From a virus, in the IMG/VR virus record IMGVR_UViG_3300033571_005202, positions 1 to 28,017 of that record: 28,017 nucleotides of DNA. One strand, 5' to 3'. This document shows, piece after piece, positions 1,739 to 24,772 of this stretch. Made by a program: the position numbers and the translations under genes. Below the pieces are notes generated by a model that worked only from the letters and a program-made list of their open reading frames with translations, had not been told where the DNA came from and searched no databases. Each line of letters starts with the position of its first letter. Position 1 is the first letter of the stretch.

Positions 1739-1767
1739 TATATAAACCGATTCTAAGGAAATGTCAA
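1739..1767 (-). promoter_or_regulatory. Sigma-70-type promoter for the TilS-like unit
   Basis: Minus strand TTGACA (1767-1762), 17-base spacer, TATATA (1744-1739). The spacer carries AGAATCGGTT directly before the -10, a box also found in the promoters at 5557 and 7373. The -35 overlaps the stop region of the nucleotidyltransferase gene. Confidence 0.7.
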
Positions 1768-2183
1768 CTCTTTTGTTTTTCTGAGACTCTTTTACGCAAA
1801 TCACTTGAACTGAACCGATGATCTCTAGTATTAAAATATAGTCGAATACCACGTTGTTTACAGATTTCACGAGCTGTAAAATCTTTATTCTTGTATTCAT
1901 CACCCAAAATTCTTACAGAGATAGGAAACATCTGTAGAATATCTTCTAGATCATTTTCAGTTTGATAACATACAATTTCATCTACGTATTTGACGGCAGA
2001 CAATTGAACATATCTCTCAACCAATGTTTGGATAGGTTTATTTTTTTCTGGTCTATCAATTGTAGGATCAGTTTGCAATGCTGCAATTAAATAATCACAT
2101 TGTGTTTTTGCTTCTCTCAACATCATAACATGACCAGCATGTAAAAGGTCAAAACAAGATGTTACAAGTCCTATTTCTTTCAT
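1764..2183 (-). CDS. TagD/RfaE2-like nucleotidyltransferase
   Basis: 139 residues, the usual size of glycerol-3-phosphate cytidylyltransferase. The HxGH nucleotide-binding motif appears as FDLLHAGHVMMLREAK at residues 11-26, and the C-terminal signature as FSSSDLRKR (family ISSTxxR). Members join CTP or ATP to a phosphorylated alcohol or sugar, giving products such as CDP-glycerol or ADP-heptose. The ATG follows the stop of the phosphomannomutase-like gene with no gap (TAA then ATG), so the two are translated together. That pairing suggests one makes a sugar 1-phosphate and the other activates it, which is inference; the substrate cannot be told from the sequence. Confidence 0.75.
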   Translation of the reverse strand: MKEIGLVTSCFDLLHAGHVMMLREAKTQCDYLIAALQTDPTIDRPEKNKPIQTLVERYVQLSAVKYVDEIVCYQTENDLEDILQMFPISVRILGDEYKNKDFTAREICKQRGIRLYFNTRDHRFSSSDLRKRVSEKQKS

Positions 2184-2888
2184 TTATGTCTCACTTATAT
2201 TTTGTAATGCACCATAAGTATCTAACCAACTATCAACATTTACATAATGATCACAAAGCATTGCAACATCATAATCATTACCACCTGGGAAAATTTGATC
2301 ACCAAAGTAATAGATAATATCAGATGGTGCCGTTCTTATTTTATTTATAGCTTGAGATTTACCAAAACCTTTTTTAAAGATATCTAATCCAGTTTCACCA
2401 CCGATATAGACATCAATATAATTGAATTTATCTTTTATTTTTTCAAAAAGTTGTCTTCGTTCATGGAATTTATTATCCCACTCTTTATATAGTTCTCTTT
2501 GCTCGTATGTACATTTCCTACCTGGTATGGAAAAGTTTACCATACCCTTCCTTAATTCTATGTGAGCACCAGCTTTTTGTGGGAATTTTGATTCATCTAG
2601 CAAACCTTCAAGATAATTGATAATATTATTATCTGGTTTCCAATCACTTGAATGTACCAAATAATCTTTATTCCAGACTTCATTCCCTGCACAGTTAAAT
2701 GAAAGTTGTGCAGAATTAAAAATAGTTTCACCTACTTGTTCTAAAGTCTTAGGTTTATCGCTTCCTGTGACAAAATATACAGGATTAGTTTTGCAAAATT
2801 TTTCAAAAAACTTTGCAAAGTTATTGTCGATCTTTTTTCTAGATGGTGTCAATGTACCATCAACATCAAAAACAAATTTTCTAGTCAA
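2184..2888 (-). CDS. Phosphomannomutase-like HAD-superfamily protein
   Basis: 234 residues. HAD motif I is FDVDGTLTPSR at 6-16, with TGSDKPKTLEQVG, FNCAGNEVW, the eukaryotic-PMM-like GGETGLDIFKKGFGKSQAI and the metal-binding loop FGDQIFPGGNDYDVA near the end. This order matches the eukaryotic-type phosphomannomutase family, which isomerises mannose 6-phosphate to mannose 1-phosphate; sugar phosphatases are close relatives. The start must be TTG at 2888 because motif I begins at residue 6 and no ATG or GTG fits; AGGAAAG lies upstream at a long spacing of 12 bases, which implies weak initiation. The TagD-like gene follows directly. Confidence 0.75.
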   Translation of the reverse strand: MTRKFVFDVDGTLTPSRKKIDNNFAKFFEKFCKTNPVYFVTGSDKPKTLEQVGETIFNSAQLSFNCAGNEVWNKDYLVHSSDWKPDNNIINYLEGLLDESKFPQKAGAHIELRKGMVNFSIPGRKCTYEQRELYKEWDNKFHERRQLFEKIKDKFNYIDVYIGGETGLDIFKKGFGKSQAINKIRTAPSDIIYYFGDQIFPGGNDYDVAMLCDHYVNVDSWLDTYGALQNISET

Positions 2889-4216: not shown

Positions 4217-4240
4217 GAAAAACTCCATTTGTTTTTCACT

Positions 4241-4248
4241 TATTTATA
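4241..4248 (-). promoter_or_regulatory. T4-type late promoter octamer upstream of the P-loop kinase
   Basis: The minus strand reads TATAAATA, a perfect match to the T4 late -10 consensus recognised by gp55, 24 bases before the ATG at 4216 in the 25-base gap after cca. The octamer also occurs inside genes of this A+T-rich window by chance, so position is the main support. Confidence 0.5.
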
Positions 4249-4253
4249 AAAGT

Positions 4254-5504: not shown

Positions 5505-5528
5505 TGGTTCACCTCTTTTCATAAGACT

Positions 5529-7934: not shown

Positions 7935-8372
7935 ATGACACTGGAAGAATTAAATGAAATGTGGGCTAAGGATGCCAAGATAGATGAAGCTCAATTAGGG
8001 CATGAAGCTATTAAAATTCCACAATTACACAACAAATATTATACAATTTACAGCAAAGAGGCTCTTCGGATGCGGAAATATAAAGCCGATCTGAAGGAAC
8101 TTGAGCATGCCAAGTATGAATGGTACACTGGTAGCATGGCGGAAGAAGATATAAAGTCACGAGGCTGGCGCCCAAATCCGCTAAAAATTCTCCGAACAGA
8201 TGTAAATAAATATATTGAGAGTGATAAAGATATTATCAACTTGAGTCTCAAGATCGACTATCACATGCAAATAGCAAATTATCTTGAGGATATCATTAGA
8301 CAAATCAATAACAGAAACTTTATGATTAAAGCTGCTATTGATTGGGCCAAATTCCAGGCTGGGGGTTTTTAA
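7935..8372 (+). CDS. uvsY: UvsY recombination mediator
   Basis: UvsY helps load the UvsX recombinase onto single-stranded DNA coated with gp32. The 145-residue protein (T4 UvsY 137) opens MTLEELNEMWAKDAKIDEAQ, close to T4's opening, and keeps LGHEAIKIPQLHNKY, the central YEWYTG, the helix SDKDIINLSLKIDYH, RNFMIKAAIDW and the ending FQAGGF (T4 FEAGK). ATG 7935 has GGAG 6 bases upstream; an in-frame ATG at 7923 overlaps that site. The uvsW gene follows after 7 bases, the neighbour order typical of T4-like phages. Confidence 0.88.
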   Translation: MTLEELNEMWAKDAKIDEAQLGHEAIKIPQLHNKYYTIYSKEALRMRKYKADLKELEHAKYEWYTGSMAEEDIKSRGWRPNPLKILRTDVNKYIESDKDIINLSLKIDYHMQIANYLEDIIRQINNRNFMIKAAIDWAKFQAGGF

Positions 8373-8379
8373 ATATATT

Positions 8380-10716: not shown

Positions 10717-11774
10717 AGATAGCTATATTATGTGACAGTCACTTTGGAATAAGATCGGACAGTAAGACATTTTTAGAACATCAATCTAAATTCTTTGCCA
10801 ATTTATTTTTTCCATATTTGGAAGAATATAAAATTGATACTGTATTACATCTAGGTGACATATTTGACCGCAGAAAATACATTAATTTTTACACTCTCAA
10901 AAAATCAAGAGAGTTCTTTTTTGATGAGTTAAAGCGCCGCGACATTGAAATGCATGCAATTCTAGGAAATCATGATACGTTCTTTACAACGACAAATGAA
11001 GTCAATTCAGTCGCACTACTTTTGAAGGAATATGATAACATACACATTTATGAACATGAGGTTGTCCATCTTGACTTCGGTTCAACTAAATTTGCTATGT
11101 GTCCTTGGCTGACTAAAGAAAATACTGAACAGAATATTAAAATACTAAAAGAATCAAAGGCACACATCCTATGTGGTCACCTTGATTTAAAGGGGTTTGA
11201 GTTGATGAAGGGTATTGTCAGCGACCATGGATTTGATCATAAAGAGTTTGTAAACTTTGAAGCTGTATATTCTGGACATTACCACCATCAATCTGAATAC
11301 GGTAATGTCAAATATCTTGGGGCCCAATATGAAATGAATTGGTCGGATTACGGCTGTAAAAAAGGGTTTCATGTTATAGATACTGAAACAAGAGAGTTGA
11401 CATTTGTTGAAAATGATGATAGAATATATCATAAAATAGATTATGATGATATTGACCTGGCAATTGATGACATTGCAGCTCTTGATACATCAATTTTAAA
11501 AGATTGCTATGTCAAAGTCATAGTAAAAAATAGAACAAATCCATATCTATATGATTTATTCCTAAATAGATTAAATGAATGTGGTGCTGCTGATATTAAG
11601 ACAGTGGAAGATGAATTGAATTTATCTGGAATTGGTGTTGATGAAATGCTTGAAGAAGCCAAAGACACAAAAGATATATTACATTCATACATTGACTCTG
11701 TAGAAACTAATATCAATAAAAGTAAAATCAAAAAAGTTGTAGATCAATTATATCTGGAAGCAATGAACGTTTGA
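10713..11774 (+). CDS. 47: gp47 recombination nuclease subunit (Mre11/SbcD-like)
   Basis: Nuclease half of the gp46/gp47 complex, which resects double-strand ends for recombination-dependent replication and host DNA breakdown. 353 residues (T4 gp47 339). The metallophosphoesterase motifs are all present: CDSHFG at 7-12, HLGDIFDRR near 46-54, LGNHDTFF near 88-95, CGHLDLKG and SGHYHHQS. Metal-binding Asp and His residues are intact. The C-terminal third (IDYDDIDLAIDDIAALD onward) is the usual cap and partner-binding part. Coupled by ATGA to the upstream small ORF. Confidence 0.93.
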   Translation: MKIAILCDSHFGIRSDSKTFLEHQSKFFANLFFPYLEEYKIDTVLHLGDIFDRRKYINFYTLKKSREFFFDELKRRDIEMHAILGNHDTFFTTTNEVNSVALLLKEYDNIHIYEHEVVHLDFGSTKFAMCPWLTKENTEQNIKILKESKAHILCGHLDLKGFELMKGIVSDHGFDHKEFVNFEAVYSGHYHHQSEYGNVKYLGAQYEMNWSDYGCKKGFHVIDTETRELTFVENDDRIYHKIDYDDIDLAIDDIAALDTSILKDCYVKVIVKNRTNPYLYDLFLNRLNECGAADIKTVEDELNLSGIGVDEMLEEAKDTKDILHSYIDSVETNINKSKIKKVVDQLYLEAMNV

Positions 11775-13701: not shown

Positions 13702-16239
13702 ATGTCTTCATTCTATACATCTGTTGAACGCAGCGGTAATATGATTTTATGGCGGGGCTATGAAAATAACCGCCGCTTTTCTCGTAAGGTTAAATATGAA
13801 CCATCACTATTCATTCCAACCAAAGAAGAAACCTCATACAAATCATTGATTGGCAACCATGCTATCAAATCAAAACAGTTTGATACTATGAATGATGCCA
13901 AGGAATATGTTGAACGATACAAGGAAGTATCCAACTTTCAGGTTTATGGCAATACAAACTTTGTCCAACAATTCATTCAGGAAAAATATCCAAATAACAT
14001 TGATTTTGACATGAACCAAATCAATATCTTTTCATTTGACATCGAAGTTGATATTTCGCAAAAACTTCCAGACATGGAAACTGCTGATAATGAAATCACT
14101 TCTATCGCAATCAAATCATCCAAATCAGATACATATCATCTACTTGGTCGCAAAGACTATGATAAGTCAAAAACACTATCGGGTATCGACCCCGAACACA
14201 TCCAATTCATGAAATTTGATAATGAACGTGATCTGCTTCGGCGCTTCATTCAAATCTGGACCAATGACTTTCCAGATATTGTGACTGGATGGAACGTGGA
14301 ATACTTCGACATTTACTATATCATCACTCGGATTATCCACCTGTTTGGCGAGGAAAAGGCTAAGGAACTATCTCCTTGGGGCTATATCCGAAAAGTCACA
14401 ACTGAAATCTTCAACCGTAATCAATCAACATATAACATCTCTGGTATCAATATCATTGACTATATGGATGCATTCAAGAAGTTCGGTTACAAATATGGCA
14501 CGCAAGAGACATACAAACTCGACCATATTGCGCACGTTGTTCTTGGCAAAAAGAAACTCGATTATTCCGAATATGGTTCATTGACCGAACTGTATAATCA
14601 AAACCCACAACTTTACCTTGACTATAACCTAATCGACACTCAACTTATTCAGTTGATGGAAGACGAAACTGCTCTCCTTGCTCTTGTCTTGACTGTTGCA
14701 TATGGTGGTGGCGTCAACTATTCCGATGCATTTGGAACCGTTGGCATCTGGGAATCAATCCTTTATCGTAAACTAATGACCAAAAACTTGGTTCCACCTG
14801 TTAAATCAGGTCCAGGTGAAAAACTTGGCGAACTCGTTGGTGGATACGTGAAAGATCCAGATACTGGATTAAAAGAATGGATTGTGTCTTTTGACCTTAA
14901 CTCACTATATCCACACCTAATGCTTCAATACAACATGTCACCAGAAACATATATTCTAGATCAACGTGAATATGTTTCACAGGAAATGGTATTGAATGAT
15001 GAATATAGGAATGCAAATCCCGATTACTCGGTCTGTGCAAATGGTGTATGTTTTACCAACAAGAAACTTGGTATCATCCCAGAAATCATTGAAGAATATT
15101 ATGCCAATCGTAAAAAAGTAAAACAGGAAATGCTTCGTATTGAACAACTTGAACAAGATACCAGTGATCCTGTCAAGAAAAAGGAATACAAGAAGCAAAT
15201 CACGCAGTTACACAATTCACAGATGGCTATTAAAATTGCTATGAACAGCTTGTATGGTGCAACCGCTAACCGTTACTTCCTATACTATATTGCGGAAATG
15301 GCAGAGGCTATTACAACATCTGGTCAACTTTCAATTCGGTATTCACAGAAATCTATTAATGAATATCTAAATTCCGTTTTGAAAACCACCAGTAAAGATT
15401 ATGTATCTTATGTCGACACAGACTCTAACTATGTAAACATGGCTCCACTGATCGAAAAGGTGTTTGGAACTACAAAGATCACACGTGATCAAGGTGAAAA
15501 GTTCCTTGATGCCGTTTCAAAGGAAAAACTTGAACCTGCTATCCAAGAAGGTTATGAAAAACTTGCATGGATCATGGGTGCATACCGTAATGCAATGTCC
15601 ATGAAACGTGAAAAGATCACGGACAAGACTATATTCATCGCCAAGAAGCGCTATATCATGAATGTTCTGAACTCCGAAGGTGTGCATTATGCAAAACCAA
15701 AAATCTCGGTCACCGGTGTTGAATCCGTTCGGTCTTCTACTCCAGAAGTCTGCCGGAACAAAATGGAAGATGCATTCAAAGTGTTCTTGAATGGAACAGA
15801 ACGTGATGCACAGGACTTCATTGAAAACTTCCGCAGTGAATTTTCATCGCTACCTGCTGCACAAGTTGCCAAAACATCTGGGACAGACGACATTGGTAAA
15901 TTCACGGATCGTCAAGGTTGGTATACTAAAGGTTGCCCAATTCATGTCCGTGGTGCAATTCTATACAATAAGTTCCTTTCTGACAGAGGTCTAAATAACA
16001 AGTACGAGACAATTAGGTCAGGTGATAAAGTGAAATTTGTATATCTAAAAATGCCAAATCCGGTTCGCGAAAATGTTATCGCGTTCCCTGGATATCTTCC
16101 AACTGAACTTGGTATTGATAGATATGTTGATTATGATACTCAATTTGACAAAGTTTTCCTAAAACCACTTGAAATTGTCCTAGAAGCCATGGGATGGACT
16201 TCTAAAAAAGTCGATACACTTGAAAACTTTTTTGGTTGA
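13702..16239 (+). CDS. 43: gp43 replicative DNA polymerase (family B)
   Basis: Replicates phage DNA and proofreads. 845 residues (T4 898). Exonuclease motifs: FDIEV with D113 and E115, TGWNVEYFDIYYI, and YNLIDTQLI. Polymerase motifs: A, SFDLNSLYPHLM with D398; B, KIAMNSLYGATANRYF; C, YVDTDSNYV at 570-578 with D572 and D574. Motif C has Val where most family B enzymes have Gly (YGDTDS). The C-terminal end (MGWTSKKVDTLENFFG) fits the clamp-binding tail of T4 gp43. GAGGTA lies 6 bases before the ATG. It has its own promoter and is unsplit by introns or inteins. Confidence 0.96.
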   Translation: MSSFYTSVERSGNMILWRGYENNRRFSRKVKYEPSLFIPTKEETSYKSLIGNHAIKSKQFDTMNDAKEYVERYKEVSNFQVYGNTNFVQQFIQEKYPNNIDFDMNQINIFSFDIEVDISQKLPDMETADNEITSIAIKSSKSDTYHLLGRKDYDKSKTLSGIDPEHIQFMKFDNERDLLRRFIQIWTNDFPDIVTGWNVEYFDIYYIITRIIHLFGEEKAKELSPWGYIRKVTTEIFNRNQSTYNISGINIIDYMDAFKKFGYKYGTQETYKLDHIAHVVLGKKKLDYSEYGSLTELYNQNPQLYLDYNLIDTQLIQLMEDETALLALVLTVAYGGGVNYSDAFGTVGIWESILYRKLMTKNLVPPVKSGPGEKLGELVGGYVKDPDTGLKEWIVSFDLNSLYPHLMLQYNMSPETYILDQREYVSQEMVLNDEYRNANPDYSVCANGVCFTNKKLGIIPEIIEEYYANRKKVKQEMLRIEQLEQDTSDPVKKKEYKKQITQLHNSQMAIKIAMNSLYGATANRYFLYYIAEMAEAITTSGQLSIRYSQKSINEYLNSVLKTTSKDYVSYVDTDSNYVNMAPLIEKVFGTTKITRDQGEKFLDAVSKEKLEPAIQEGYEKLAWIMGAYRNAMSMKREKITDKTIFIAKKRYIMNVLNSEGVHYAKPKISVTGVESVRSSTPEVCRNKMEDAFKVFLNGTERDAQDFIENFRSEFSSLPAAQVAKTSGTDDIGKFTDRQGWYTKGCPIHVRGAILYNKFLSDRGLNNKYETIRSGDKVKFVYLKMPNPVRENVIAFPGYLPTELGIDRYVDYDTQFDKVFLKPLEIVLEAMGWTSKKVDTLENFFG

Positions 16240-16294: not shown

Positions 16295-16612
16295 ATGAAA
16301 GAACATGTAAATGATACATCCAAAGATTATGATCATATGATTGGTTATGTAGCCGAAGAAAATATCAATAAAGGATCATTGAATGAGTTCCTTGGTGAAA
16401 AACCCAAAGAATACAAACCAGAGGTCAAGAAAAAAGAGCGCGATAATGAATTTCCTGAAGATTGGCAAAAGCTTCTTGTAAACTTTCATTCTGAAAAAGA
16501 TTATATTGACTTTATGAATAAAATTGGAAGTAAACCTGTTCCGAAATTAAAAGGTCTAATTTATGAAAAGCCAGGTGATAAATCCGCATTTTCCGACTTC
16601 TTTGGAGACTAA
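16295..16612 (+). CDS. Small protein with a W-x-V-x-F domain, 105 residues
   Basis: Unknown function. The N-terminal half is charged (KPKEYKPEVKKKERDNEF); the C-terminal half has WQKLLVNFHSEKDYIDFM followed by IGSKPVPKLKGLIYEKP. This strand-helix pattern also appears in the next gene (WKQIVIKFKNKEDREHFA ... YKLTDRTDVVSYPDRP), so the two proteins share one small domain. I recall similar modules in ParB-like and modification-associated phage proteins, without a known activity. AGGAG stands 6 bases before the ATG. First gene of the cluster that leads into the TAGT glycosyltransferase. Confidence 0.7.
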   Translation: MKEHVNDTSKDYDHMIGYVAEENINKGSLNEFLGEKPKEYKPEVKKKERDNEFPEDWQKLLVNFHSEKDYIDFMNKIGSKPVPKLKGLIYEKPGDKSAFSDFFGD

Positions 16613-16614
16613 AT

Positions 16615-16932
16615 ATGAATACATTAATTGAAATTAATACAGTAGAAGAATTACAAAATCACTGGCGTGATCCTTATCTTCAATGGTGGGCTGCAGGTAT
16701 GCCAAGTTTTAGACAGCCTGCAAAGGATCCTTGGAAACAAATCGTGATTAAATTTAAGAACAAAGAAGATCGTGAACACTTTGCACAAGTATTTGGTTAT
16801 AAACTAACTGACAGAACTGACGTTGTGTCTTATCCTGATAGACCTCGTGATCCAAATTCAATGAGTCGTTATGTCGAAGAAGGATACCAGCAAGATAAAT
16901 TTGAGGAGACTGATCAAGATGACGATGAATGA
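16615..16932 (+). CDS. Small protein with a W-x-V-x-F domain, 105 residues, paired with its neighbour
   Basis: Same length as the preceding protein and sharing its domain, here in the centre (WKQIVIKFKNKEDREHFA then GYKLTDRTDVVSYP). The N-terminal part, WRDPYLQWWAAGMPSFRQPA, is Trp-rich and the C-terminus is strongly acidic (DKFEETDQDDDE). The tandem pair may be an old duplication. Its last 14 bases overlap the start of the TAGT glycosyltransferase in another frame, implying linked translation and perhaps a partner role for that enzyme. The function is unknown. Confidence 0.7.
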   Translation: MNTLIEINTVEELQNHWRDPYLQWWAAGMPSFRQPAKDPWKQIVIKFKNKEDREHFAQVFGYKLTDRTDVVSYPDRPRDPNSMSRYVEEGYQQDKFEETDQDDDE

Positions 16933-17869
16933 TAATCCAAGATATCCAATTTATATTATCTCTAAAGGTCGTTGGGAATCAAGACATACCTCTCGTACAC
17001 TAGATAAGATGGGCGTTCCATATTATCTCGCTGTAGAACCACAAGAATATGATAACTATGTCAAAGCCGTCGGCAAAGAAAAGGTCCTGGCACTTCCATT
17101 CAGCAATCATGGTCTTGGTTCTGGACCAGCAAGAAATTGGTGCTGGGAACATTCAAAGGTCAATGGTTTCAAGCGCCACTGGCTAATGGATGATAACATG
17201 CTCGACTTTTATCGTCTCCATAATAACAAGCGCTATCGTGTCGATAAAGGTTCGGCAATTTTCCGTGCAGCAGAAGATTTTGTTGACCGATTTGAAAATA
17301 TTGCACTATCTGGTTTCCAGTATAAATTCTTTGCAATTGACGATTGTGCTTATCCACCATATATTCTTAATACACGGATCATGTCTTGTTTCCTAATTGA
17401 TAATGATTGTCCTGTCATGTGGCGCGGCAAATACAACGAAGACGTTGACCTTTCAATTCGTGTTTTGAAAGAAGGTCTTTGCACAATGTTATTCTATTCG
17501 TTCCTCTGCGGTAAACTTCGGACTGGTACAGTAAAAGGTGGTAATACTACTGAAATCTATAATAACTATCAGGAAGATGCATCATATAATAAATCCAAGA
17601 TGCTTTATGAAATGCATCCAGACTGTGTTGAACTTGTAGAAAAATATGGTCGTGCACACCACCATGTAAACCTTGATAAAATCATAAATAAGTTCGGCCA
17701 ACCAGCAAGACAAAATGTTCCAATCTTGAAAAAAGATGTTGACATTTTGAATAAAGTAGATAATTATGGGATGGAGTTGTTCCGTAACTATGGGACCGAC
17801 AATACATTTTCAGAGCCTTCATTCAGTCTAAATGACTACCCTAAAGGCAGAAATTCTATTCACGAATAA
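16919..17869 (+). CDS. TAGT-family glycosyltransferase (TET/JBP-associated, GT-A fold)
   Basis: Predicted to transfer a sugar to a hydroxylated pyrimidine in phage DNA. 316 residues. The opening YPIYIISKGRWESRHTSRTL (about 8-27) and MGVPYYLAVEPQEYDNYV are typical, followed by LPFSNHGLGSGPARNWCWEH, the metal and nucleotide site WLMDDNM with D91-D92, FRAAEDFVDRFENIALSGFQ and the acceptor-side block MWRGKYNEDVDLSIRVL. This order matches my recollection of TAGT proteins found beside TET/JBP dioxygenases in phages. No TET or cytosine C5-methyltransferase gene lies in this window, so the base it modifies is unknown. ATG 16919 has GAGGAG 10 bases upstream; a longer frame has no support. Confidence 0.8.
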   Translation: MTMNDNPRYPIYIISKGRWESRHTSRTLDKMGVPYYLAVEPQEYDNYVKAVGKEKVLALPFSNHGLGSGPARNWCWEHSKVNGFKRHWLMDDNMLDFYRLHNNKRYRVDKGSAIFRAAEDFVDRFENIALSGFQYKFFAIDDCAYPPYILNTRIMSCFLIDNDCPVMWRGKYNEDVDLSIRVLKEGLCTMLFYSFLCGKLRTGTVKGGNTTEIYNNYQEDASYNKSKMLYEMHPDCVELVEKYGRAHHHVNLDKIINKFGQPARQNVPILKKDVDILNKVDNYGMELFRNYGTDNTFSEPSFSLNDYPKGRNSIHE

Positions 17870-17891
17870 CCGAAATATTAAGGAGAAAAGA

Positions 17892-18848
17892 ATGAGCAAA
17901 ATTATGATCACAGGCGGCGCTGGTTTCATCGCGTTCCATCTAGCATCTAGTTTGAAAGAAAAAGGTCACGAGGTTTTTGGGTTTGATAATTTCAATGATT
18001 ATTATGATCCAAGTTTAAAGAGGGCTCGTGTTGAAGAACTAGGTAAGATCGGTGTTCCAGTTTACACTGCCGATCTTCGGATAAAATCCGATCTAGACGA
18101 ACTAGTTAGAACAGAGCAGCCAGATGTAGTTATGCATCTTGCGGCACATGCTGGTGTCCGGCATTCTATGGAAAATCCTAGTGTTTACATTGAAAACAAT
18201 ATTGTCGGAACACAAAATCTAATTGACGTATGTGAAAAATATGGTGTTTCAAACTTGGTTTATGCTTCCACATCATGTGTCATGGCTGGAAATACACTCC
18301 CTTGGAAAGAGGATGAACCTACAGGTCACCAATTAAATCCATATGGTTATTCCAAACGAACAAATGAATGCCAATTCAAGGTTGCAAAAATTGATAATGT
18401 AATTGGTCTGCGATTCTTTACAGTTTATGGACCATGGGGTCGACCAGATATGGCACTATTTACGTTCACAAAAAATATCCTAGACTCAAAATCAATTGAT
18501 GTTTACAATTATGGAGACATGAAGCGTGACTTTACATATGTAGATGATATTGTACAAGGCATTGAAATTGTAATCAACCGTGTACTTTCTGTTGACAAAC
18601 CAATTAATGAGATATATAATATCGGTTATGGGGAACAAGTAAATCTGATGGACTTTATTTACGAGATTGAAAAGAACTTTGGTAAGGTTGCTGAAAAGAA
18701 CTTTCTCCCGTTACACCCCGCCGATACACAAGAAACCTGGTCTGACACAACAAAATTGCAGCAACTTGGTTATAAATCAACAACTCCTATGGAAGTAGGT
18801 GTAGAGAAATTCTCGAATTGGTATAAACACTATTATAAGGTAAATTGA
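17892..18848 (+). CDS. NAD-dependent nucleotide-sugar epimerase (UDP-glucuronate 4-epimerase-like)
   Basis: Extended short-chain dehydrogenase of 318 residues. The Rossmann motif GGAGFIAFHLA is at 7-17. FDNFNDYYDPSLKRARVEEL near 30-50 is typical of UDP-glucuronate 4-epimerases (CapI/LpsL type). The catalytic set is ASTSC and YGYSK (YxxxK). RFFTVYGPWGRPDMALFTFT and DFTYVDDIV are substrate-binding blocks. UDP-glucuronate to UDP-galacturonate is the best guess; UDP-xylose/arabinose or UDP-glucose epimerisation cannot be excluded. The following gene resembles UDP-glucose dehydrogenase, which makes UDP-glucuronate, so the pair forms a short pathway. AAGGAG precedes ATG 17892. Confidence 0.8.
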   Translation: MSKIMITGGAGFIAFHLASSLKEKGHEVFGFDNFNDYYDPSLKRARVEELGKIGVPVYTADLRIKSDLDELVRTEQPDVVMHLAAHAGVRHSMENPSVYIENNIVGTQNLIDVCEKYGVSNLVYASTSCVMAGNTLPWKEDEPTGHQLNPYGYSKRTNECQFKVAKIDNVIGLRFFTVYGPWGRPDMALFTFTKNILDSKSIDVYNYGDMKRDFTYVDDIVQGIEIVINRVLSVDKPINEIYNIGYGEQVNLMDFIYEIEKNFGKVAEKNFLPLHPADTQETWSDTTKLQQLGYKSTTPMEVGVEKFSNWYKHYYKVN

Positions 18849-18849
18849 T

Positions 18850-19695
18850 ATGAAAAAATTGAAAATGGCTATTGTCGGGCATGGGTTCGTCGGTGCAGCC
18901 GTAGATTATGGGTTCCCAGATAGTAATTGTAATAAAACAATAATTGATCCAAAATATGGAACTAGAGTTGCAGATTTAGTCGGATCTGATATTGAAGTTG
19001 CATTTGTTTGTGTTCCAACTCCGATGGGAAGAGCTGCAAGCATTGATGCTACAATCTTAATTTCTGCGGTCAGTGATCTTCTGACATATACAAATGCTAT
19101 GGTTGTAATCAAATCAACAGTCATTCCAAGTATTGTTGGTGAACTTGCCAAAGATCCAAGAGTCATTTACAATCCTGAATTTTTGACTGAAAAGGCTGCA
19201 AATGAGGATTTTGTCAATCCGATTATGCACGTATTTGGTGGTGAAGCTGAACAAACTGAAAGACTTGAAAAGATCTATACCAAATATAGCGCCTGCAAAC
19301 CATGCCCAGTTTACCATATGACTGCGGAAGAAGCAAGTTTTGTCAAATATGGTATGAATTCATTTCTTGCTTCAAAGGTTCTTTGGTTTAATCAGTTCCA
19401 TGGTATTGTTGAAAAATTTGGCGGGAATTATTCTACAATTATCAAGGCTATCGGAACTGATAAGCGAATTGGATCTTCGCATACAATGGTTCCGGGACAT
19501 GATGGTCGTAAAGGTTATGGTTCGGCGTGTTTTGCCAAAGATGTTCCCGCATTTGTAAAATTTGCGCAATCTGTCGGAAAAGACTTTACTGTTCTGAAAG
19601 AAGTGGCTATTGTAAATCAGAATATCCGAAATTCGTATGGTGAACCTCTTCCACGTGAAAAAGAACAACACGTTAGTTTTGATTATGACATCTGA
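18850..19695 (+). CDS. UDP-glucose 6-dehydrogenase-like enzyme lacking the C-terminal domain
   Basis: Oxidises UDP-glucose (or a related nucleotide sugar) to the uronic acid in two NAD-dependent steps. The 281 residues include the Rossmann start MAIVGHGFVGAAVDYG, FVCVPTP, the central helix block AEEASFVKYGMNSFLASKVLWFNQ with the catalytic Lys/Asn positions, and YGSACFAKD with the nucleophile Cys227 (family GGxCxPKD). Full-length enzymes have 390-450 residues; here the third domain, which closes over the UDP moiety, is absent. The frame stops cleanly and the next gene overlaps, so this is not a recent frameshift. It may be a compact phage form with altered donor binding. Confidence 0.8.
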   Translation: MKKLKMAIVGHGFVGAAVDYGFPDSNCNKTIIDPKYGTRVADLVGSDIEVAFVCVPTPMGRAASIDATILISAVSDLLTYTNAMVVIKSTVIPSIVGELAKDPRVIYNPEFLTEKAANEDFVNPIMHVFGGEAEQTERLEKIYTKYSACKPCPVYHMTAEEASFVKYGMNSFLASKVLWFNQFHGIVEKFGGNYSTIIKAIGTDKRIGSSHTMVPGHDGRKGYGSACFAKDVPAFVKFAQSVGKDFTVLKEVAIVNQNIRNSYGEPLPREKEQHVSFDYDI

Positions 19696-19999
19696 TAATT
19701 TCAATAAACTAACACCAGCTGAAACTGAAAGGCTTGCAATGCTTGCTGAAGAAGCTGCTGAGATTGTACAAATTGTTGGTAAAATTCTTCGGCATGGTTA
19801 TGATAGTTATAACCCAAATGCCGAAAAGATTACTAATAGAGTATTGCTCAATCAAGAAATAGTTGATCTTATGGCAGTGACTAAAGCAATGGTTATCAAC
19901 AATGATATTCATGATCAACATGTTGATGATATTTACAGAGCTTGGCAACGCAAATTAAAATGGTCGCATCATCAGGATAAAATTGATGCCAAAAGTTAA
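19685..19999 (+). CDS. MazG-like nucleotide pyrophosphohydrolase, first copy
   Basis: All-alpha NTP pyrophosphohydrolase fold. 104 residues with the metal-binding set EEAAEIVQIVGKILRHG near 16-32 and LNQEIVDLMAVTKAM near 57-71 (ExxE ... ExxD). Members hydrolyse non-canonical or normal (d)NTPs to monophosphates; phage versions may tune nucleotide pools or the alarmone ppGpp. ATG 19685 lies 11 bases before the previous gene's stop, and dCMP deaminase overlaps its end by 14 bases, so expression is tightly coupled. A second MazG-like gene is at 23701; the two are clearly different in sequence. Confidence 0.7.
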   Translation: MTSDNFNKLTPAETERLAMLAEEAAEIVQIVGKILRHGYDSYNPNAEKITNRVLLNQEIVDLMAVTKAMVINNDIHDQHVDDIYRAWQRKLKWSHHQDKIDAKS

Positions 20000-20477
20000 T
20001 TCTAAATGGGATACTCGGTTCATGAAGTTGGCTCGAGAAATTTCCACCTGGTCTAAAGATCCAAGTTCAAAGATTGGTGCGGTGATTGTCAATGATGATC
20101 GCCGCATTCTTGCTACTGGTTATAATGGGTTTCCAAAGGGTATTGAAGATACAGAGGAGCGATTAAATGATCGTGAACAAAAGTATCCACGAATAGTTCA
20201 TGCTGAAATGAATGCTCTCATGAATGCACTTTATAGTGGTGTTTCAGTCAAAGATGCTACAATTTATGTTTACGGGCTTCCAGTATGCCCTGAATGTACA
20301 AAATCTATTATCTCAGCAGGGATTAAACGTATTGTGATCTCACCCGATCCATATGTCTATATCACACCATGGACCGAAAAATGGAAAAATGTATCGTATA
20401 AAATGATACAGGAAGTCGGAGACATTAATGTGACATACGCAAATTCAGATAAATTGGACTGGACATTAGATGGCTAA
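19986..20477 (+). CDS. cd: Deoxycytidylate (dCMP) deaminase
   Basis: Converts dCMP to dUMP, feeding thymidylate or hydroxymethyl-dUMP synthesis. 163 residues; zinc site HAE at 72-74 (HAEMNALMNAL) and PVCPEC with C101 and C104; N-terminal DPSSKIGAVIVNDDRRIL and YNGFPKGIEDTEERL are typical of dCMP deaminases as opposed to cytidine deaminases. T4 Cd is 193 residues. ATG 19986 overlaps the MazG-like gene end. With dUTPase at 27120 it indicates control of the dUMP pool, which fits a phage that alters pyrimidines. Confidence 0.93.
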   Translation: MPKVNSKWDTRFMKLAREISTWSKDPSSKIGAVIVNDDRRILATGYNGFPKGIEDTEERLNDREQKYPRIVHAEMNALMNALYSGVSVKDATIYVYGLPVCPECTKSIISAGIKRIVISPDPYVYITPWTEKWKNVSYKMIQEVGDINVTYANSDKLDWTLDG

Positions 20478-21117
20478 TTCACTCAAAGATATCTATGTTG
20501 GTGTAAAGAAAGATGATGAAAATCGGAATGAAAATGATCTTTATCCAACTCCACCAATAGCAACATACATACTACAGAAATATGTTGATTTACCGAAGAA
20601 TATTATTGAGCCATGTGCTGGCCGTGGTAATATCTCAATCGAACTTATTCGGAATGGGTTTGATGTAAAATCATTTGATATGTATGAATATGAAGATAAA
20701 CTTTGTACTATTCAAACAGGGCAAGATGTTCTAGCATTGCCGAAGCAAATTGGTTATGGTGCACTTGTCACAAACCCACCATATTTTCAAGATTTACCTC
20801 GCAAAATAGCAGAAAAATGCGTGTCAGAATATGATGTCACTGCTCTCTTTGTGCGATTGACATTCCTAGAAGGTAAGAAACGAAAGAAATTATTTACAAA
20901 AAACACTCCAAGTGATATAATTATTCTTTCGGATCGTATTAGATTTGGAGCCGGGTATCCTGAAGCTATAAATAAGAATGAGCAACTTGGCGGTATGATT
21001 GCATACTGTTGGATTGTCTGGGATAAACGCAAAGATAATCAAGCAACTAAACTCCGTTGGGTTCTTTTAGAAGATGAATATGATGAATGGAGACAACATT
21101 ATGAGGAGACTAAATGA
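20470..21117 (+). CDS. SAM-dependent DNA methyltransferase-like protein (NPPY type)
   Basis: 215 residues, a compact Rossmann methyltransferase. YPTPPIATYILQKYV precedes motif I, IIEPCAGRGNISIELI (about 42-57), with a likely acidic SAM contact in FDMYEYEDK. Motif IV is NPPYFQDL from residue 102, which indicates amino methylation of adenine or cytosine in DNA, not C5 methylation. A target-recognition domain is not evident, so it may act non-specifically or modify something else. It overlaps dCMP deaminase by 8 bases and is coupled to the GT-B gene by ATGA. Confidence 0.7.
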   Translation: MANSLKDIYVGVKKDDENRNENDLYPTPPIATYILQKYVDLPKNIIEPCAGRGNISIELIRNGFDVKSFDMYEYEDKLCTIQTGQDVLALPKQIGYGALVTNPPYFQDLPRKIAEKCVSEYDVTALFVRLTFLEGKKRKKLFTKNTPSDIIILSDRIRFGAGYPEAINKNEQLGGMIAYCWIVWDKRKDNQATKLRWVLLEDEYDEWRQHYEETK

Positions 21118-22187
21118 CTAAAATTGTAATGCCATTTCTAATGAATGATGAAAATGATCTTGACTCGCCACGTGTTTCAGGTGGGCTAGAACGATTCTCT
21201 CAGTTTATTTACAAATATGCTGGTGCGGAAGTCATTCCATTCTATTACAATCGAGAAGATCGGAAAAATAGAACTGTAACTCCAAAGTTACTTGCATTTA
21301 TCCACAATCACAAGCCTGATCTTGTAATTTCAAATCAAGATTCTGGAACTATTACTACAAACATTCAACGTGTGACTGATATTCCAATGCTTTGGATATC
21401 TCATACAGCCGCAGGAGGTATTTTTAAAATCCCTCAACTCGATATGATGAAAGAGTTTGTTGATAATGGTGGGACTCTTGCCATGGTTAGTCAATGGCAA
21501 TATGATGGTATGAATGAACTGTCCAAGCGAGTTCGCAGTAGAGAGCTTGAACTCAATGGTGGTTTAATCAATTCAGCATTCTGTACTGGCGATGAACAGA
21601 CATCGACACAAATTGATTATGATTGTGTGACTATCGGTCGAGTCGACAAAGAAAAAGACCCATTCCTTCTACATAAACTTGCAGGTAAGAGTGATCTTAA
21701 ATCCTTGGTCTTGACCTCTGCATATGATCTTATACCTTCACAACAAGAATATCTCGACAAAAATAAACATTGGGAAAGCCCAAAGGAAACATTGTTTAAT
21801 CTAAAACACACCGAGGTGATGGATCATCTATCAAGATCTGGTGTCTATCTTTCTACTTGTGCCAGAGAAACCTGGGGTATTACAGCACTTGAAGCATTTG
21901 CACGTGGTGTTCCTGTAGTTCTATTTCGTATTGCCGCTAATAAAAATAAACACGCATCAGAAGATATTGCACCAGGTCCAGAGTTTTATGAAGCAATGAC
22001 AAATAAGACCGAAAAGGATTTTAAATTAGCAGTTGACAAATTACTAAAAGTTGATAGAATGGAACTATCACAAAAGACCAAAGAGAAACATTCCAAAGAA
22101 AATTGGGTGCAAACTCTCAATAATCTTATTGATAAAGCAATCGAAAATAAAAAGCAACACCAAAAACCCGTTTCATGGTTTGATTAA
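21114..22187 (+). CDS. GT-B glycosyltransferase (GT4-like)
   Basis: 357 residues with two Rossmann-like halves. The N-terminal half has GGLERFSQFIYKYAG near 23-37 and DIPMLWISHTAAGG near 90-103; the C-terminal half has the donor-binding block ETWGITALEAFARGVPVVLF, where E252 and E260 give the EX7E retaining motif. It resembles GT4 enzymes that use nucleotide-diphospho-sugars. Its place in the cluster suggests transfer to DNA, or extension of a sugar placed by the TAGT enzyme, but a surface or protein acceptor cannot be excluded. ATGA coupling with the methyltransferase. Confidence 0.75.
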   Translation: MTKIVMPFLMNDENDLDSPRVSGGLERFSQFIYKYAGAEVIPFYYNREDRKNRTVTPKLLAFIHNHKPDLVISNQDSGTITTNIQRVTDIPMLWISHTAAGGIFKIPQLDMMKEFVDNGGTLAMVSQWQYDGMNELSKRVRSRELELNGGLINSAFCTGDEQTSTQIDYDCVTIGRVDKEKDPFLLHKLAGKSDLKSLVLTSAYDLIPSQQEYLDKNKHWESPKETLFNLKHTEVMDHLSRSGVYLSTCARETWGITALEAFARGVPVVLFRIAANKNKHASEDIAPGPEFYEAMTNKTEKDFKLAVDKLLKVDRMELSQKTKEKHSKENWVQTLNNLIDKAIENKKQHQKPVSWFD

Positions 22188-22198
22188 GAAAGTATATT

Positions 22199-22834
22199 AT
22201 GAAGTTAATCTTTATAGATTTTGAAACTATGGGTGACGATGTTCTCGAACCTTGTGCAGCAGTAGACATGTCAATACTTGTTGGCGATACTGATAAAATG
22301 TTGTCTGACAATCCTTATTCTTGCAAAGATGTTGTCTTAGCAAAGAAGTTTAAATTGTCAGTGAAAGATCAAGTGTCTAATTACGGATTTGTTGTCCAAG
22401 ACACTGCGGTTAAATTTTGGCAAGAGGTATCACCAGAAGCTCGTAAACACGTCAAGCCTTCACCAGATGATCTTACAGTAGAGCAGTTTATTAATCAACT
22501 GATTACACATCTAAATACCATTGGCAAGTTTGATTATTGGTTCTCTCGTGGTAATACATTTGATCCAATTATCTTACAGCGACTATTTAAAGTAGTTGGT
22601 AAAACTTACACATTTAAAGAATATTTTAGATTTAATAGAGTGCAAGATATGCGAAGCTTTATTAATGCTAAAATGGATTATCCTGTAACTACAAATATTA
22701 CTCCAATTCAAGATGAAGTATTCTGGAAATCTGTGTTTATTGAGCATGATAGTGCATGGGATGTTCTTGCTGATTTACTTCGCTATCAGACAATTCTTAG
22801 ACTTGAAAATGATTTAGAACAACCGAAAAGGTGA
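22199..22834 (+). CDS. dexA: DexA-like 3'-5' exonuclease
   Basis: DEDD-family exonuclease; T4 DexA degrades single-stranded DNA and can substitute for other nucleases. 211 residues (T4 DexA 227). Exo I is FIDFETMGDD at 4-13 (D6, E8); exo II RGNTFDPIILQRL near 118-130; exo III EHDSAWDVLADLL near 181-193. Blocks FWQEVSPEARK and RVQDMRSFI are also typical. It lies between two glycosyltransferase genes, a separate insertion relative to T4. No ribosome binding site of note; the gap to the previous stop is 11 bases. Confidence 0.85.
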   Translation: MKLIFIDFETMGDDVLEPCAAVDMSILVGDTDKMLSDNPYSCKDVVLAKKFKLSVKDQVSNYGFVVQDTAVKFWQEVSPEARKHVKPSPDDLTVEQFINQLITHLNTIGKFDYWFSRGNTFDPIILQRLFKVVGKTYTFKEYFRFNRVQDMRSFINAKMDYPVTTNITPIQDEVFWKSVFIEHDSAWDVLADLLRYQTILRLENDLEQPKR

Positions 22835-22837
22835 TAT

Positions 22838-23704
22838 ATGAAAATTGAAATAACCGCAGATGTATTAAGAAAATATTCTATATTCATAGGCACTCCTATG
22901 TATGGTGGAAACTGTGCAGGATTATTCTGTAAATCTGTAAGTGATCTATCAAAACTTTGTGCAAAAAACGGTATTGAACTACAAGAATATTTTCTGTTCA
23001 ATGAAAGCCTTGTTCAGAGAGCAAGAAATTATGTAGTTGATGAATTCCTAAGATCAAACTGCACGCACTTGATGTTTATTGATGCTGACATCGGGTTTAA
23101 TCCAAAAGATGTCCTTTCACTACTAGCATTGCAAATATCAGATCCAGAAAAATATCAAATTATGACTGGACCTTATCCCAAAAAGACTATTGCATGGGAA
23201 AAAGTAAAATCTGCCGTTAAAAATGGTAAGGCGGAAAATCCTTCCGATCTTGCATTTTATTCTGCTGACTATGTGTTTAATCCAGCAAAGAATGTTACTT
23301 CATTCCGTATTGATGAACCCGTTGAAGTTGCCGAAGGTGGTACCGGCTTTATGTTAATTCCCAGAGAAGTACTCGAAAAATATGCTGCAGCATATCCAGA
23401 ATTGAGTTATAAACCCGATCATGTCAGAACAGAAAATTTCAATGGAGACAGAGAAATCACTGCATTCTTTGATTGTATTATTGACCCAGAAACAAAGCGA
23501 TATCTATCAGAAGATTATTTCTTCTGTAAAAAAGCTAGAAAAATTGGCATTACTATTCATATGTGCCCATGGATGAATCTACAGCATGTTGGAACATACA
23601 TTTTCAGAGGATCAATGGCAGCAATTGCATCTATTGGGGCTTCTCCAACCGCTGGTGCTGACGCAAAGGTAAAGAAAAAGAACAAGTTAGGAACAAGACC
23701 ATGA
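22838..23704 (+). CDS. GT-A glycosyltransferase-like protein
   Basis: 288 residues. The GT-A core has FIGTPMYGGNCAGLFCKS near 16-33, NESLVQRARNYVVDEFLRS near 55-73, and the metal-binding LMFIDADIGF with D82-A-D84 (DxD). Later blocks EGGTGFMLIPREVLEKY and SEDYFFCKKARKIGI (a likely catalytic acid in SEDYFF) and LQHVGTYIFRGSM complete the fold. I have seen this type in marine T4-like phages, with no proven acceptor. The C-terminus is Lys-rich (AKVKKKNKLGTRP), perhaps a DNA contact. Third glycosyltransferase of the cluster; its end overlaps the second MazG-like gene by 4 bases. Confidence 0.75.
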   Translation: MKIEITADVLRKYSIFIGTPMYGGNCAGLFCKSVSDLSKLCAKNGIELQEYFLFNESLVQRARNYVVDEFLRSNCTHLMFIDADIGFNPKDVLSLLALQISDPEKYQIMTGPYPKKTIAWEKVKSAVKNGKAENPSDLAFYSADYVFNPAKNVTSFRIDEPVEVAEGGTGFMLIPREVLEKYAAAYPELSYKPDHVRTENFNGDREITAFFDCIIDPETKRYLSEDYFFCKKARKIGITIHMCPWMNLQHVGTYIFRGSMAAIASIGASPTAGADAKVKKKNKLGTRP

Positions 23705-24039
23705 CATTTTTAAATACACTACGTCAAAAGAATAATGAGCGGCAAAAACTATGGACAGGCTCTGAGAATGTTGATGTTCTTTTTAGAGCAGTTGAATTTG
23801 CGGGTGAAGCAGGTGAAGTTGCAAATGCCGTAAAGAAGGTCTATAGAGCACAAAATGGTATTATTGGAAACAATAAAGACATTAACGATTTAATGGAAAA
23901 TCTGGTCGAAGAAATTGGAGATGTTCTTATTACTATTGACCTTCTCGCAAATGAATATAACATTGATCTTGAACAAGCAGTCAAGTCTAAATTTAACAAA
24001 ACATCAAAAAAAGTAAATATTCCAGTGTTCCTGGAGTAA
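23701..24039 (+). CDS. MazG-like nucleotide pyrophosphohydrolase, second copy
   Basis: 112 residues with the classic MazG pattern: QRKNNER-type start (LRQKNNERQKLW), FAGEAGEVANAVKKVYRA near 38-55 and LVEEIGDVLITIDLLA near 77-92 (ExxE ... ExxD). A better match to MazG-type dNTP pyrophosphohydrolases than the copy at 19685. Such enzymes in T4-like marine phages have been discussed as modulators of host nucleotide metabolism. It ends the accessory cluster; the clamp promoter begins 7 bases after its stop. Confidence 0.8.
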   Translation: MTFLNTLRQKNNERQKLWTGSENVDVLFRAVEFAGEAGEVANAVKKVYRAQNGIIGNNKDINDLMENLVEEIGDVLITIDLLANEYNIDLEQAVKSKFNKTSKKVNIPVFLE

Positions 24040-24109: not shown

Positions 24110-24772
24110 ATGAAATTTTCTGAACGCACACTCACAGTCCTCAAGAATTTTGCAACCATTAATCCATCTATTATCTTTAAACCTGGTAAACAACTTCGTA
24201 CTATCAGTCCACAAAAGACTGTAATGGCTATTGCAAATATTGATGACGAGATTACTTCAGAAGCCTGTGTTTATGACATGTCTCGTTTTCTATCCACCTA
24301 TGGTCTATTCGGTGAACCCGAAGTTCAATTCGAAGACACCCATTTTATAATGGCTCAGGGTAAAACAAAGACACGTTATTACTTTGCTGACAAGTCTATG
24401 ATTATTGCACCGCCTGAAAAAGAAATCAATATCCCAACTAATGATGTTGAAGTTGAAATTGAATGGTCTGATCTTCAATCGGTAATCAAAGCGGCTGGTG
24501 TTCTCCAGCTTCCAGAAGTTGCTTTCGTCGGTGATGGTGATACTTGTTCATTGAAGGCAATTGATTCAAATAATGCCACTGGTGACACTTTCGGTGTTGA
24601 ACTTGGTGCTACCGCTGACAAGTTCCAACTCATCATCAAGACCGAAAATCTCAAACTCATCCCTCAGAAGTATAAGGTCACACTTTGTTCCAAAGGTATC
24701 TCAAAGTTTGAAGGTGATAATGTGACATACTTTATCGCAATCGAATCCAAATCAACATATAAGAAAGGCTAA
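24110..24772 (+). CDS. 45: gp45 sliding clamp
   Basis: Trimeric ring that tethers gp43 to DNA and activates late transcription with gp55. 220 residues (T4 gp45 228). It begins MKFSERTLTVLKNFATINPS, close to the T4 opening, and keeps IIFKPGKQLRTISPQKTVMA near 21-40, the domain linker around FADKSMIIAPPEKEINIPT and the C-terminal strand block NVTYFIAIESKSTYKKG. ATG 24110 is chosen because GAAAGGAG stands 5 bases before it; the in-frame TTG at 24095 lies within that site. First gene of the operon. Confidence 0.92.
   Translation: MKFSERTLTVLKNFATINPSIIFKPGKQLRTISPQKTVMAIANIDDEITSEACVYDMSRFLSTYGLFGEPEVQFEDTHFIMAQGKTKTRYYFADKSMIIAPPEKEINIPTNDVEVEIEWSDLQSVIKAAGVLQLPEVAFVGDGDTCSLKAIDSNNATGDTFGVELGATADKFQLIIKTENLKLIPQKYKVTLCSKGISKFEGDNVTYFIAIESKSTYKKG

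Follow-up and report, generated by a model that had tools for sequence, protein, structure and literature searches.

Between gp43 and gp45, a T4-like virus of water bacteria carries a co-directional cluster of overlapping genes that we interpret, with a probability of about 0.52 for the whole chain, as a DNA-glycosylation module of the T4 superfamily with its own donor supply, that is, with DNA as the target and a donor derived from UDP-glucuronate. Taken separately, derivation of the donor from UDP-glucuronate is quite probable and DNA is the probable target; the chances that the transferred sugar is still an acid are even. The virus belongs to an aquatic lineage, and a DNA-level search of GenBank phages with the stretch analysed (28,017 nucleotides, hereafter the window) gave no match. 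In the proposed pathway, a short UDP-glucose 6-dehydrogenase (UGD) would oxidise UDP-glucose to UDP-glucuronate, which an SDR would convert, most likely by 4-epimerisation to UDP-galacturonate. TAGT, a GT-A enzyme akin to the T2/T6 enzyme that adds the second glucose to hydroxymethylcytosine (hmC), would then attach this sugar to a hydroxylated pyrimidine of the replicated phage DNA, either directly or through a first sugar already present. The products of the GT-B and phrog_1574 genes may attach a further sugar, dCMP deaminase and MazG-like enzymes would shape the nucleotide pool, and the likely purpose would be to shield the DNA against host nucleases. The preliminary description of this DNA had also proposed a modification cluster with its own donor pathway, and this stands as the best reading, since the epimerase-type SDR (EPI) and UGD are tied to the DNA glycosyltransferase AGT in sister phages and the adjacency of TAGT and SDR is near universal.

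Genes of the cluster

The cluster lies directly behind gp43, at the place that holds gp42 and b-gt in T4 and the arabinosylation genes in RB69. Pfam, PHROG and PDB matches agree with the earlier naming of TAGT, epimerase, UGD-like, methyltransferase, GT-B, dCMP deaminase and MazG-like genes. The reported overlaps are real (4 bases between the methyltransferase and GT-B genes and between the "GT-A" and second MazG-like genes, 8 between the dCMP deaminase and methyltransferase genes, and 14-17 between the first MazG-like and dCMP deaminase genes), but the TAGT and epimerase genes come apart once RBS-supported starts are used. The dN/dS values of UGD, TAGT, EPI and GT-B are about 0.05, which means strong purifying selection.

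All genes of the cluster described here are on the plus strand. At the 5' end, orfA (16295..16612) encodes a small conserved protein that resembles orfB by eye; its family is found together with TAGT at 83 loci, with a dN/dS of 0.04-0.07. The next gene, orfB (16615..16932), is probably the N-terminal domain of TAGT as a separate gene, as the two are fused in relatives (G001, 61221-62447; TAGTs of 405-409 aa in L106 and L116). The proposed transferase onto DNA, TAGT (16919..17869), has an ORF that opens at 16871 and an RBS-supported start at 16919. It belongs by family match to PF20691, the T2/T6 DNA glycosyltransferase family (6.7e-47, model positions 1-205 of 205, the whole length), and also matches phrog_842 (6.9e-52). 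Its DDN and NED motifs are invariant, in keeping with a GT-A enzyme with a DxD-type metal motif. The Foldseek matches of its model (pLDDT 73) are GT-A enzymes, with a best E of 2.5e-6 and a TM of about 0.4, and its sequence found no match in the PDB. "Solitary" TAGTs have been named an open question (PMC13216743).

The SDR proposed for the second donor step (17892..18848) is of the UDP-glucuronate 4-epimerase type, and its start is preceded by the RBS AAGGAG. It matches PF01370 (2.7e-52), carries the RFFTVYGPWGRPDMALF motif, and has 5u4q (9.6e-84) and 6zl6 (2e-47) as its nearest solved structures. Alignments to both locate YxxxK and the Arg of RPDMA in the window SDR, which is without a UXS signature; its nearest characterised members and these residues place it among the UDP-glucuronate 4-epimerases. 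We take 6zl6 to be a UDP-GlcA 4-epimerase and the RPDMA arginine to be the carboxylate-binding residue of such enzymes.

The UGD gene for the proposed first step (18850..19695) matches PF00984 (1.2e-16) and PF03721 (1.2e-11). The preliminary description was right about the family and missed the absence of a domain: the protein has only 281 aa, and PF03720, the C-terminal UDP-binding domain of known UGDs, is missing in the window. Most phage relatives of this UGD are equally short. Catalytic Lys166, Asn170, Cys227 and Asp231 are invariant in 40 sequences (dN/dS 0.05), and the best 50 Foldseek matches of the model (pLDDT 92) are all UGDs. The protein has the Rossmann and central domains with the catalytic Cys, Lys, Asn and Asp of a UGD, and this activity is predicted from sequence and model.

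Farther downstream, a fast-evolving MazG-like NTP pyrophosphohydrolase (19685..19999, with a longer ORF opening at 19637; phrog_4856, 1.4e-16) is a putative nucleotide-pool enzyme. The dCMP deaminase (19983..20477; PF00383, 1.1e-22; phrog_174, 6e-48) is common in T4-like phages and hence not diagnostic. The DNA methyltransferase (20470..21117; phrog_799, 3.8e-40) is of the amino-methyltransferase type with NPPY and is not a C5 enzyme. A GT4-like GT-B glycosyltransferase (21114..22187; PF00534, 2.4e-8; dN/dS 0.05) is a possible second transferase. The exonuclease (22199..22834; phrog_255, 4.2e-23) probably has a role in replication or recombination, outside the donor pathway. The gene earlier described as GT-A (22838..23704) is present and may encode a glycosyltransferase, but it is without a Pfam match, its glycosyltransferase link is weak (1.3e-4), and its family, phrog_1574, is of unassigned function. 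It had no meaningful match in the PDB. We rejected it as a core gene: phages that lack TAGT still carry it close to gp45, and it is therefore only loosely a member of the cluster. A second MazG-like pyrophosphohydrolase follows (23701..24039; PF03819, 3e-8).

Related loci and the acceptor base

The comparison set comprised several hundred related loci, among which many contigs are akin, so that the following counts are not independent events. At TAGT loci with enough flank, an SDR gene is immediately downstream of TAGT in 55/60 and UGD within 2.5 kb in 39/60; at 16 TAGT loci SDR is present and UGD absent within 7 kb. Many TAGT-SDR-UGD loci are without GT-B, and TAGT and SDR are nearly always neighbours. 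The SDR partner comes in at least three kinds, and phages that are otherwise about 93% identical may differ in it; EPI-type and other-type SDRs never share a locus. Between the window and L087, the TAGTs are 93% identical while the SDRs are only 25% alike; hence either TAGT tolerates different donors, or both SDRs lead to one product, or an enzyme other than TAGT uses what the SDR makes. Even TAGTs that are only 31-32% alike have an SDR downstream of them, with UDP-xylose-synthase motifs (L139, L141) and, in one case, a full-length UGD. The commonest alternative SDR is at most a possible UDP-xylose synthase: its best PDB matches are UXS, yet it lacks the STSEVYG motif. Relatives of the alternative SDR adjoin UGD in bacterial genomes (26/77 loci). 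By eye, G001 has several further glycosyltransferase-like genes; genes like KdsA and KdsB occur in L153.

The donor genes also accompany the T4-type DNA alpha-glycosyltransferase (AGT; PF11440, 3e-32), with EPI and UGD within 3 kb at 57 of 63 loci and EPI only at the other 6. In sister phages the pair is directly behind AGT, often with a gp42-like dCMP hydroxymethylase that is 44-53% identical to T4 gp42 and has the NDYAWQ motif. This position behind a DNA glycosyltransferase connects the donor pair with the glycosylation of DNA. AGT Gly15, Arg204 and Glu306 are conserved in 73/73 sequences, and the position of T4 His114, a glucose contact, is Val in 68/68 EPI-linked AGTs (one clade). A C5-methyltransferase that adjoins EPI/UGD in sister phages (f40) has no counterpart in the window and was not taken as part of the module here.

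Enzymes that could provide the acceptor hydroxyl were sought in two near-complete relatives, G001 (170 kb) and G002 (178 kb), as well as in the window, whose genome is incomplete. A TS-family dCMP hydroxymethylase (gp42) was absent from the window, both relatives and 50 TAGT records. Neither PF12851 nor a profile built from six TET-like proteins of phages matched a TET/JBP enzyme in G001, G002 and the other TAGT loci searched, and no C5-methyltransferase was detected in G001 and G002. The preliminary description had considered that a full genome without an enzyme making a hydroxylated pyrimidine would refute it, and in these three enzyme classes the two relatives go part of the way there. Their lack of a known base-hydroxylating enzyme points to an unrecognised acceptor-making route or to a new TAGT substrate. 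As gp42 was not found with TAGT, the cluster is likened to T-even hmC glycosylation in its working only and is not counted a member. ThyX, considered as a disguised hydroxymethylase, is found in G001 and G002 but also near gp42-bearing clusters, and so is not specific to TAGT. An unsystematic look for CmoX-type carboxymethylation noticed no homologue. A crude, noisy scan for 2OG-oxygenase motifs picked out a prolyl-hydroxylase-like protein (by eye; G001, 51434-51976), for which no TAGT link was found.

Known systems and novelty

T2/T6 hmC diglucosylation by gp42, AGT and TAGT (beta-glucosyl-HMC-alpha-glucosyltransferase) has the TAGT family and the site behind gp43 in common with the cluster, and sister phages carry gp42 and AGT homologues. 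However, the T2/T6 donor is host UDP-glucose, whereas the window encodes two donor-making enzymes, and no gp42 turned up in TAGT relatives. RB69 and NP, which make arabinosyl-hydroxycytosine, are T4-like phages with their own sugar-donor genes behind gp43. The comparison with RB69-type pentose drawn earlier is nevertheless only a loose one: RB69 makes its donor with isomerase, kinase and NTP-transferase genes, has a 5-hydroxy-dCMP synthase, joins the pentose to 5-hydroxycytosine, and has no annotated UGD or UDP-GlcA epimerase. Its ORF050c-053c, ORF055c and ORF048c gave no tblastn match in the window, which thus showed neither the ORF053_052 NTP-transferase/kinase nor the 5-hodCMP synthase. The TET/JBP-TAGT cassette of Nonlabens phage P12024L likewise has TAGT beside a methyltransferase, but there a PF12851 oxygenase directly precedes TAGT, and the window TAGT has none. 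Phage C48C1 (Kyanoviridae) has an epimerase (57%) and a UGD (41%) shortly behind gp43; TAGT was not found in it, and a TET/JBP-like oxygenase, a glycosyltransferase of a second kind and a UDP-galactopyranose mutase are elsewhere in its genome.

T-even glycosylation known so far uses neutral sugars. The suggestion that any acidic sugar on DNA would be unprecedented is not supported, since the DNA of phage SP-15 carries phosphoglucuronate and its modification cluster has a UGD (PMC5977210). SP-15 thus shares with the proposed module an acidic sugar on phage DNA and the UGD, but its glucuronate is attached through a phosphodiester to a hypermodified uracil (phosphoglucuronated, glucosylated dihydroxypentyluracil), and no 4-epimerase or TAGT is listed in its described cluster. 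Uronosyl-hydroxymethylcytosine would be new; the literature searched, largely open-access papers, yielded no description of hydroxymethylcytosine bearing a uronic acid. Tentatively, a widespread aquatic T4-like lineage may place uronic acid on pyrimidines (GalA- or GlcA-hmC in gp42-AGT-EPI-UGD phages, and an analogous base with an acidic glycosyl group in TAGT phages like this one, where an unrecognised enzyme would supply the hydroxyl), with the sugar switched by exchange of one SDR between near-identical genomes. If so, each modified base would gain a negative charge, altering packaging and interactions with polymerases and nucleases, and the enzymes might serve DNA tagging via the carboxylate. 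That the SDR can be exchanged suggests gene-by-gene alteration of the phage sugar coat.

Competing explanations and accessory genes

The DNA might instead receive a neutral or altered sugar, if the SDR or a later enzyme turned UDP-glucuronate into a pentose or another product. RB69, NP and Thanatos are known to carry pentose-modified cytosine, the distant TAGT operons of L139 and L141 pair TAGT with an SDR of UDP-xylose-synthase motifs, and the SDR is exchangeable between EPI and other types from locus to locus. The window SDR itself argues otherwise, being a 4-epimerase-type enzyme by its matches to 5u4q and 6zl6, with the arginine of RPDMA and no UXS signature, and no additional pentose-making enzyme was recognised beside it, so that we regard this explanation as rather unlikely. 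The swap of SDRs next to a TAGT that stays 93% identical would also fit a TAGT that acts on DNA with host UDP-glucose, the donor genes serving the GT-B or phrog_1574 transferase. The equal conservation of GT-B and the missing UGD in some TAGT loci agree with such a division of labour, but it is made improbable by the many TAGT-SDR-UGD loci that do without GT-B and by the nearly constant adjoining of TAGT and SDR.

A target other than DNA, such as host lipopolysaccharide, capsule or a virion glycoprotein, remodelled to block superinfection or change adsorption, appears unlikely. UGD and 4-epimerase are classic capsule/LPS genes, and the bacterial UGD neighbours of the alternative SDR, the other glycosyltransferase-like genes of G001, the KdsA-/KdsB-like genes of L153 and the failure to find a base-hydroxylating enzyme in G001 and G002 are all compatible with such a target. 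In both main arrangements, however, the neighbour of the donor genes is from a DNA-glycosyltransferase family (TAGT or AGT), often with gp42, and the cluster is within the DNA replication block. These points favour DNA as the target. We saw neither a flippase nor a polymerase gene in the cluster.

Two possible accessory genes are found on the minus strand of the window. One (2184..2888; PF03332, 1.5e-28) encodes a phosphomannomutase-type sugar-phosphate mutase or phosphatase, and a family similar to it, named by eye, is near the cluster in 25 loci. The other (1764..2183; PF01467, 1.8e-11) encodes a cytidylyltransferase-like nucleotidyltransferase, and a similar family, matched by eye, is found at 53 loci.

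The probable modification cluster between gp43 and gp45

The window, a fragment of 28 kb from IMG/VR, belongs to a deep-branching phage of T4-like type; its DNA polymerase shares 44% identity with that of phage C48C1 and ~43% with those of cyanophages. The best reading of its gene cluster, at a probability of roughly 0.52, is that a module glycosylates DNA with a donor made from UDP-glucose via UDP-glucuronate. The sugar so attached may plausibly be a uronic acid. The cluster is flanked by gp43 (13702-16239) on the 5' side and gp45 (24110-24772) on the 3' side, and all of its genes lie on one strand with several overlaps of 4-17 bases. Domain searches bore out the cluster genes named in the preliminary description; the exception is the "GT-A" gene at 22838, whose family, phrog_1574, has no function assigned to it. 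The phrog_1574 protein (window 22838-23704; related loci L223 9001-9858 and L224 9001-9849) is also encoded near gp45 in the T4-like phages of Stenotrophomonas and Caulobacter whose same region contains a TET/JBP-like oxygenase. On its minus strand, this T4-like window also encodes a set for RNA metabolism: a DUF2828 protein (3-764), a PP-loop (TilS-like) protein (1019-1624), and a CCA-adding-type nucleotidyltransferase with an HD domain (4254-5522).

Upstream of the glycosyltransferase TAGT (PF20691; 16919-17869) stands the small orfB (16615-16932). Relatives, G001 among them (408 aa), have the two fused, and therefore the window carries a split TAGT unit. The UDP-glucuronate 4-epimerase-type SDR (17892-18848) aligns with 5u4q (9.6e-84) and 6zl6 (2e-47), and carries the RFFTVYGPWGRPDMALF signature. 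The C-terminal domain is missing from the 281-aa UDP-glucose dehydrogenase, UGD (18850-19695), as it is from most of the enzyme's phage relatives. Lys166, Asn170, Cys227, and Asp231 of UGD are invariant across 40 diverse sequences, and the 50 best PDB matches of its confidently predicted model (pLDDT 92) are all UGDs. Since dN/dS is ~0.05 for each of TAGT, the epimerase, UGD, and the glycosyltransferase GT-B (21114-22187), none of these genes is decaying.

SDR and UGD genes beside TAGT

Five scans of viral contigs yielded several hundred related loci. Sixty TAGT loci extend 2.2 kb or more downstream; the next gene is an SDR in 55 of them, and UGD lies within 2.5 kb in 39. The window-type SDR is found in 19 TAGT loci; the others mostly contain a second type, 25-31% alike, and the two never occur in one locus. 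The window and locus L087 are nearly identical in gp43 (94%), TAGT (93%), and GT-B (94%), but UGD is only 78% identical and the SDRs differ in type. This points to cassette exchange, in which the SDR-UGD segment appears to have been swapped as one unit. TAGT is constant across the swap, and the products of the SDR types may or may not differ. Because UGD lies within two genes in 26/77 loci of its bacterial relatives (identity up to 63%), the second type probably also uses UDP-glucuronate. Two distant TAGT loci (31-32% identity) encode an SDR with the UDP-xylose-synthase motifs ACPASP and TSTSEVYG or TSTSEIYG, followed in one by a full-length UGD. TAGT is thus repeatedly partnered by an enzyme predicted to act on UDP-glucuronate. 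Two loci closely related to the window, L147 (1289-5647) and L176 (4705-9945), have no TAGT. In its stead, before the epimerase, they encode an RB69-like NTP-transferase/kinase protein, the glycosyltransferase-like f87, which has no family match, and a C5-methyltransferase.

AGT loci with the same epimerase and UGD genes

Sister marine phages carry the epimerase and UGD downstream of a protein assigned by Pfam to AGT, the T4 DNA alpha-glucosyltransferase (PF11440, 3e-32). AGT loci were gathered by a separate scan, and neighbors were counted within 3 kb (n=63); both genes are present in 57 loci, and the epimerase alone in the remaining 6. Many AGT-epimerase loci also encode a protein like the dCMP hydroxymethylase gp42, with 44-53% identity to T4 gp42 and the NDYAWQ motif. 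His114 of T4 AGT is a listed glucose contact (PMC6024577). In an alignment of 73 AGTs, Val occupies this position in 68/68 epimerase-linked AGTs of one clade. His114 is kept in T4, KP179, and three further AGTs, two of which have no epimerase nearby, and Gly15, Arg204, and Glu306 are conserved in 73/73. On this alignment, the change to Val fits a donor altered at its sugar; because the epimerase-linked AGTs make up one clade, it may be a single evolutionary event. The base-modification genes of T4 and RB69 likewise lie downstream of gp43.

A C5 cytosine methyltransferase gene (PF00145; L075 10809-11999, and homologues) regularly follows AGT-epimerase-UGD. KdsA-like (PF00793) and KdsB-like (PF02348) genes (L153 1770-2561 and 5514-6209; also L149, L150, and L071) lie upstream of the epimerase/UGD pair in marine phage contigs, near a TS-family gene.

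Known systems and the search for an acceptor-making enzyme

TAGT is the second-sugar enzyme of T2/T6, and solitary TAGTs, found in 288/753 phage genomes, have been described as potentially novel transferases (PMC13216743). In phages of the RB69 type, 5-hydroxycytosine bears arabinose (PMC6024577, PMC13390438), made by genes other than those of the window's cluster. An acidic sugar on DNA had been proposed as new; SP-15 DNA bears phosphoglucuronate, with UGD within the SP-15 cluster (PMC5977210), and thus such a sugar is already known. Our literature searches turned up no report of hydroxymethylcytosine bearing a uronic acid.

No TS-family gene was detected in 50 TAGT-bearing records or in G001 (169,742 bases) and G002 (177,535 bases), two relatives with nearly complete T4-type replication and virion gene sets. 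Nor was a C5-methyltransferase detected in G001 and G002, and no TET/JBP was detected in them by a Pfam TET search, which had no positive control, or by a six-sequence profile, which did recover the sequences it was built from. For thymidylate, both genomes encode ThyX, named from the RHRSFSFQEFSQRY motif. The preliminary description took the lack of a pyrimidine-hydroxylating enzyme as counter-evidence; such a lack is therefore seen in part, for these three enzyme classes in the two relatives. Because gp42 was looked for in relatives and not found, we class the module as working like T-even DNA glycosylation and not as a member of it.

TET/JBP-like oxygenases are encoded in C48C1 (OQ984149 49583-53030), L223 (6440-7786), L224 (15039-16367), and L494 (3729-5165). 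All can be aligned to the PF12851-annotated protein of P12024L; in DLP_6, Cr30, and S-CBWM1 they are labelled "SNF2 DNA repair protein". Genes for a glycosyltransferase and a UDP-galactopyranose mutase come after the oxygenase in C48C1. The 170-kb T4-like relative G001 (L214, L215) carries genes (4065-5210, 8086-9357, 10842-11423, and 37854-39209) for serine hydroxymethyltransferase, alternative oxidase, heme oxygenase, a bilin reductase, and a 5-aminolevulinate-synthase-like enzyme, the last named by eye.
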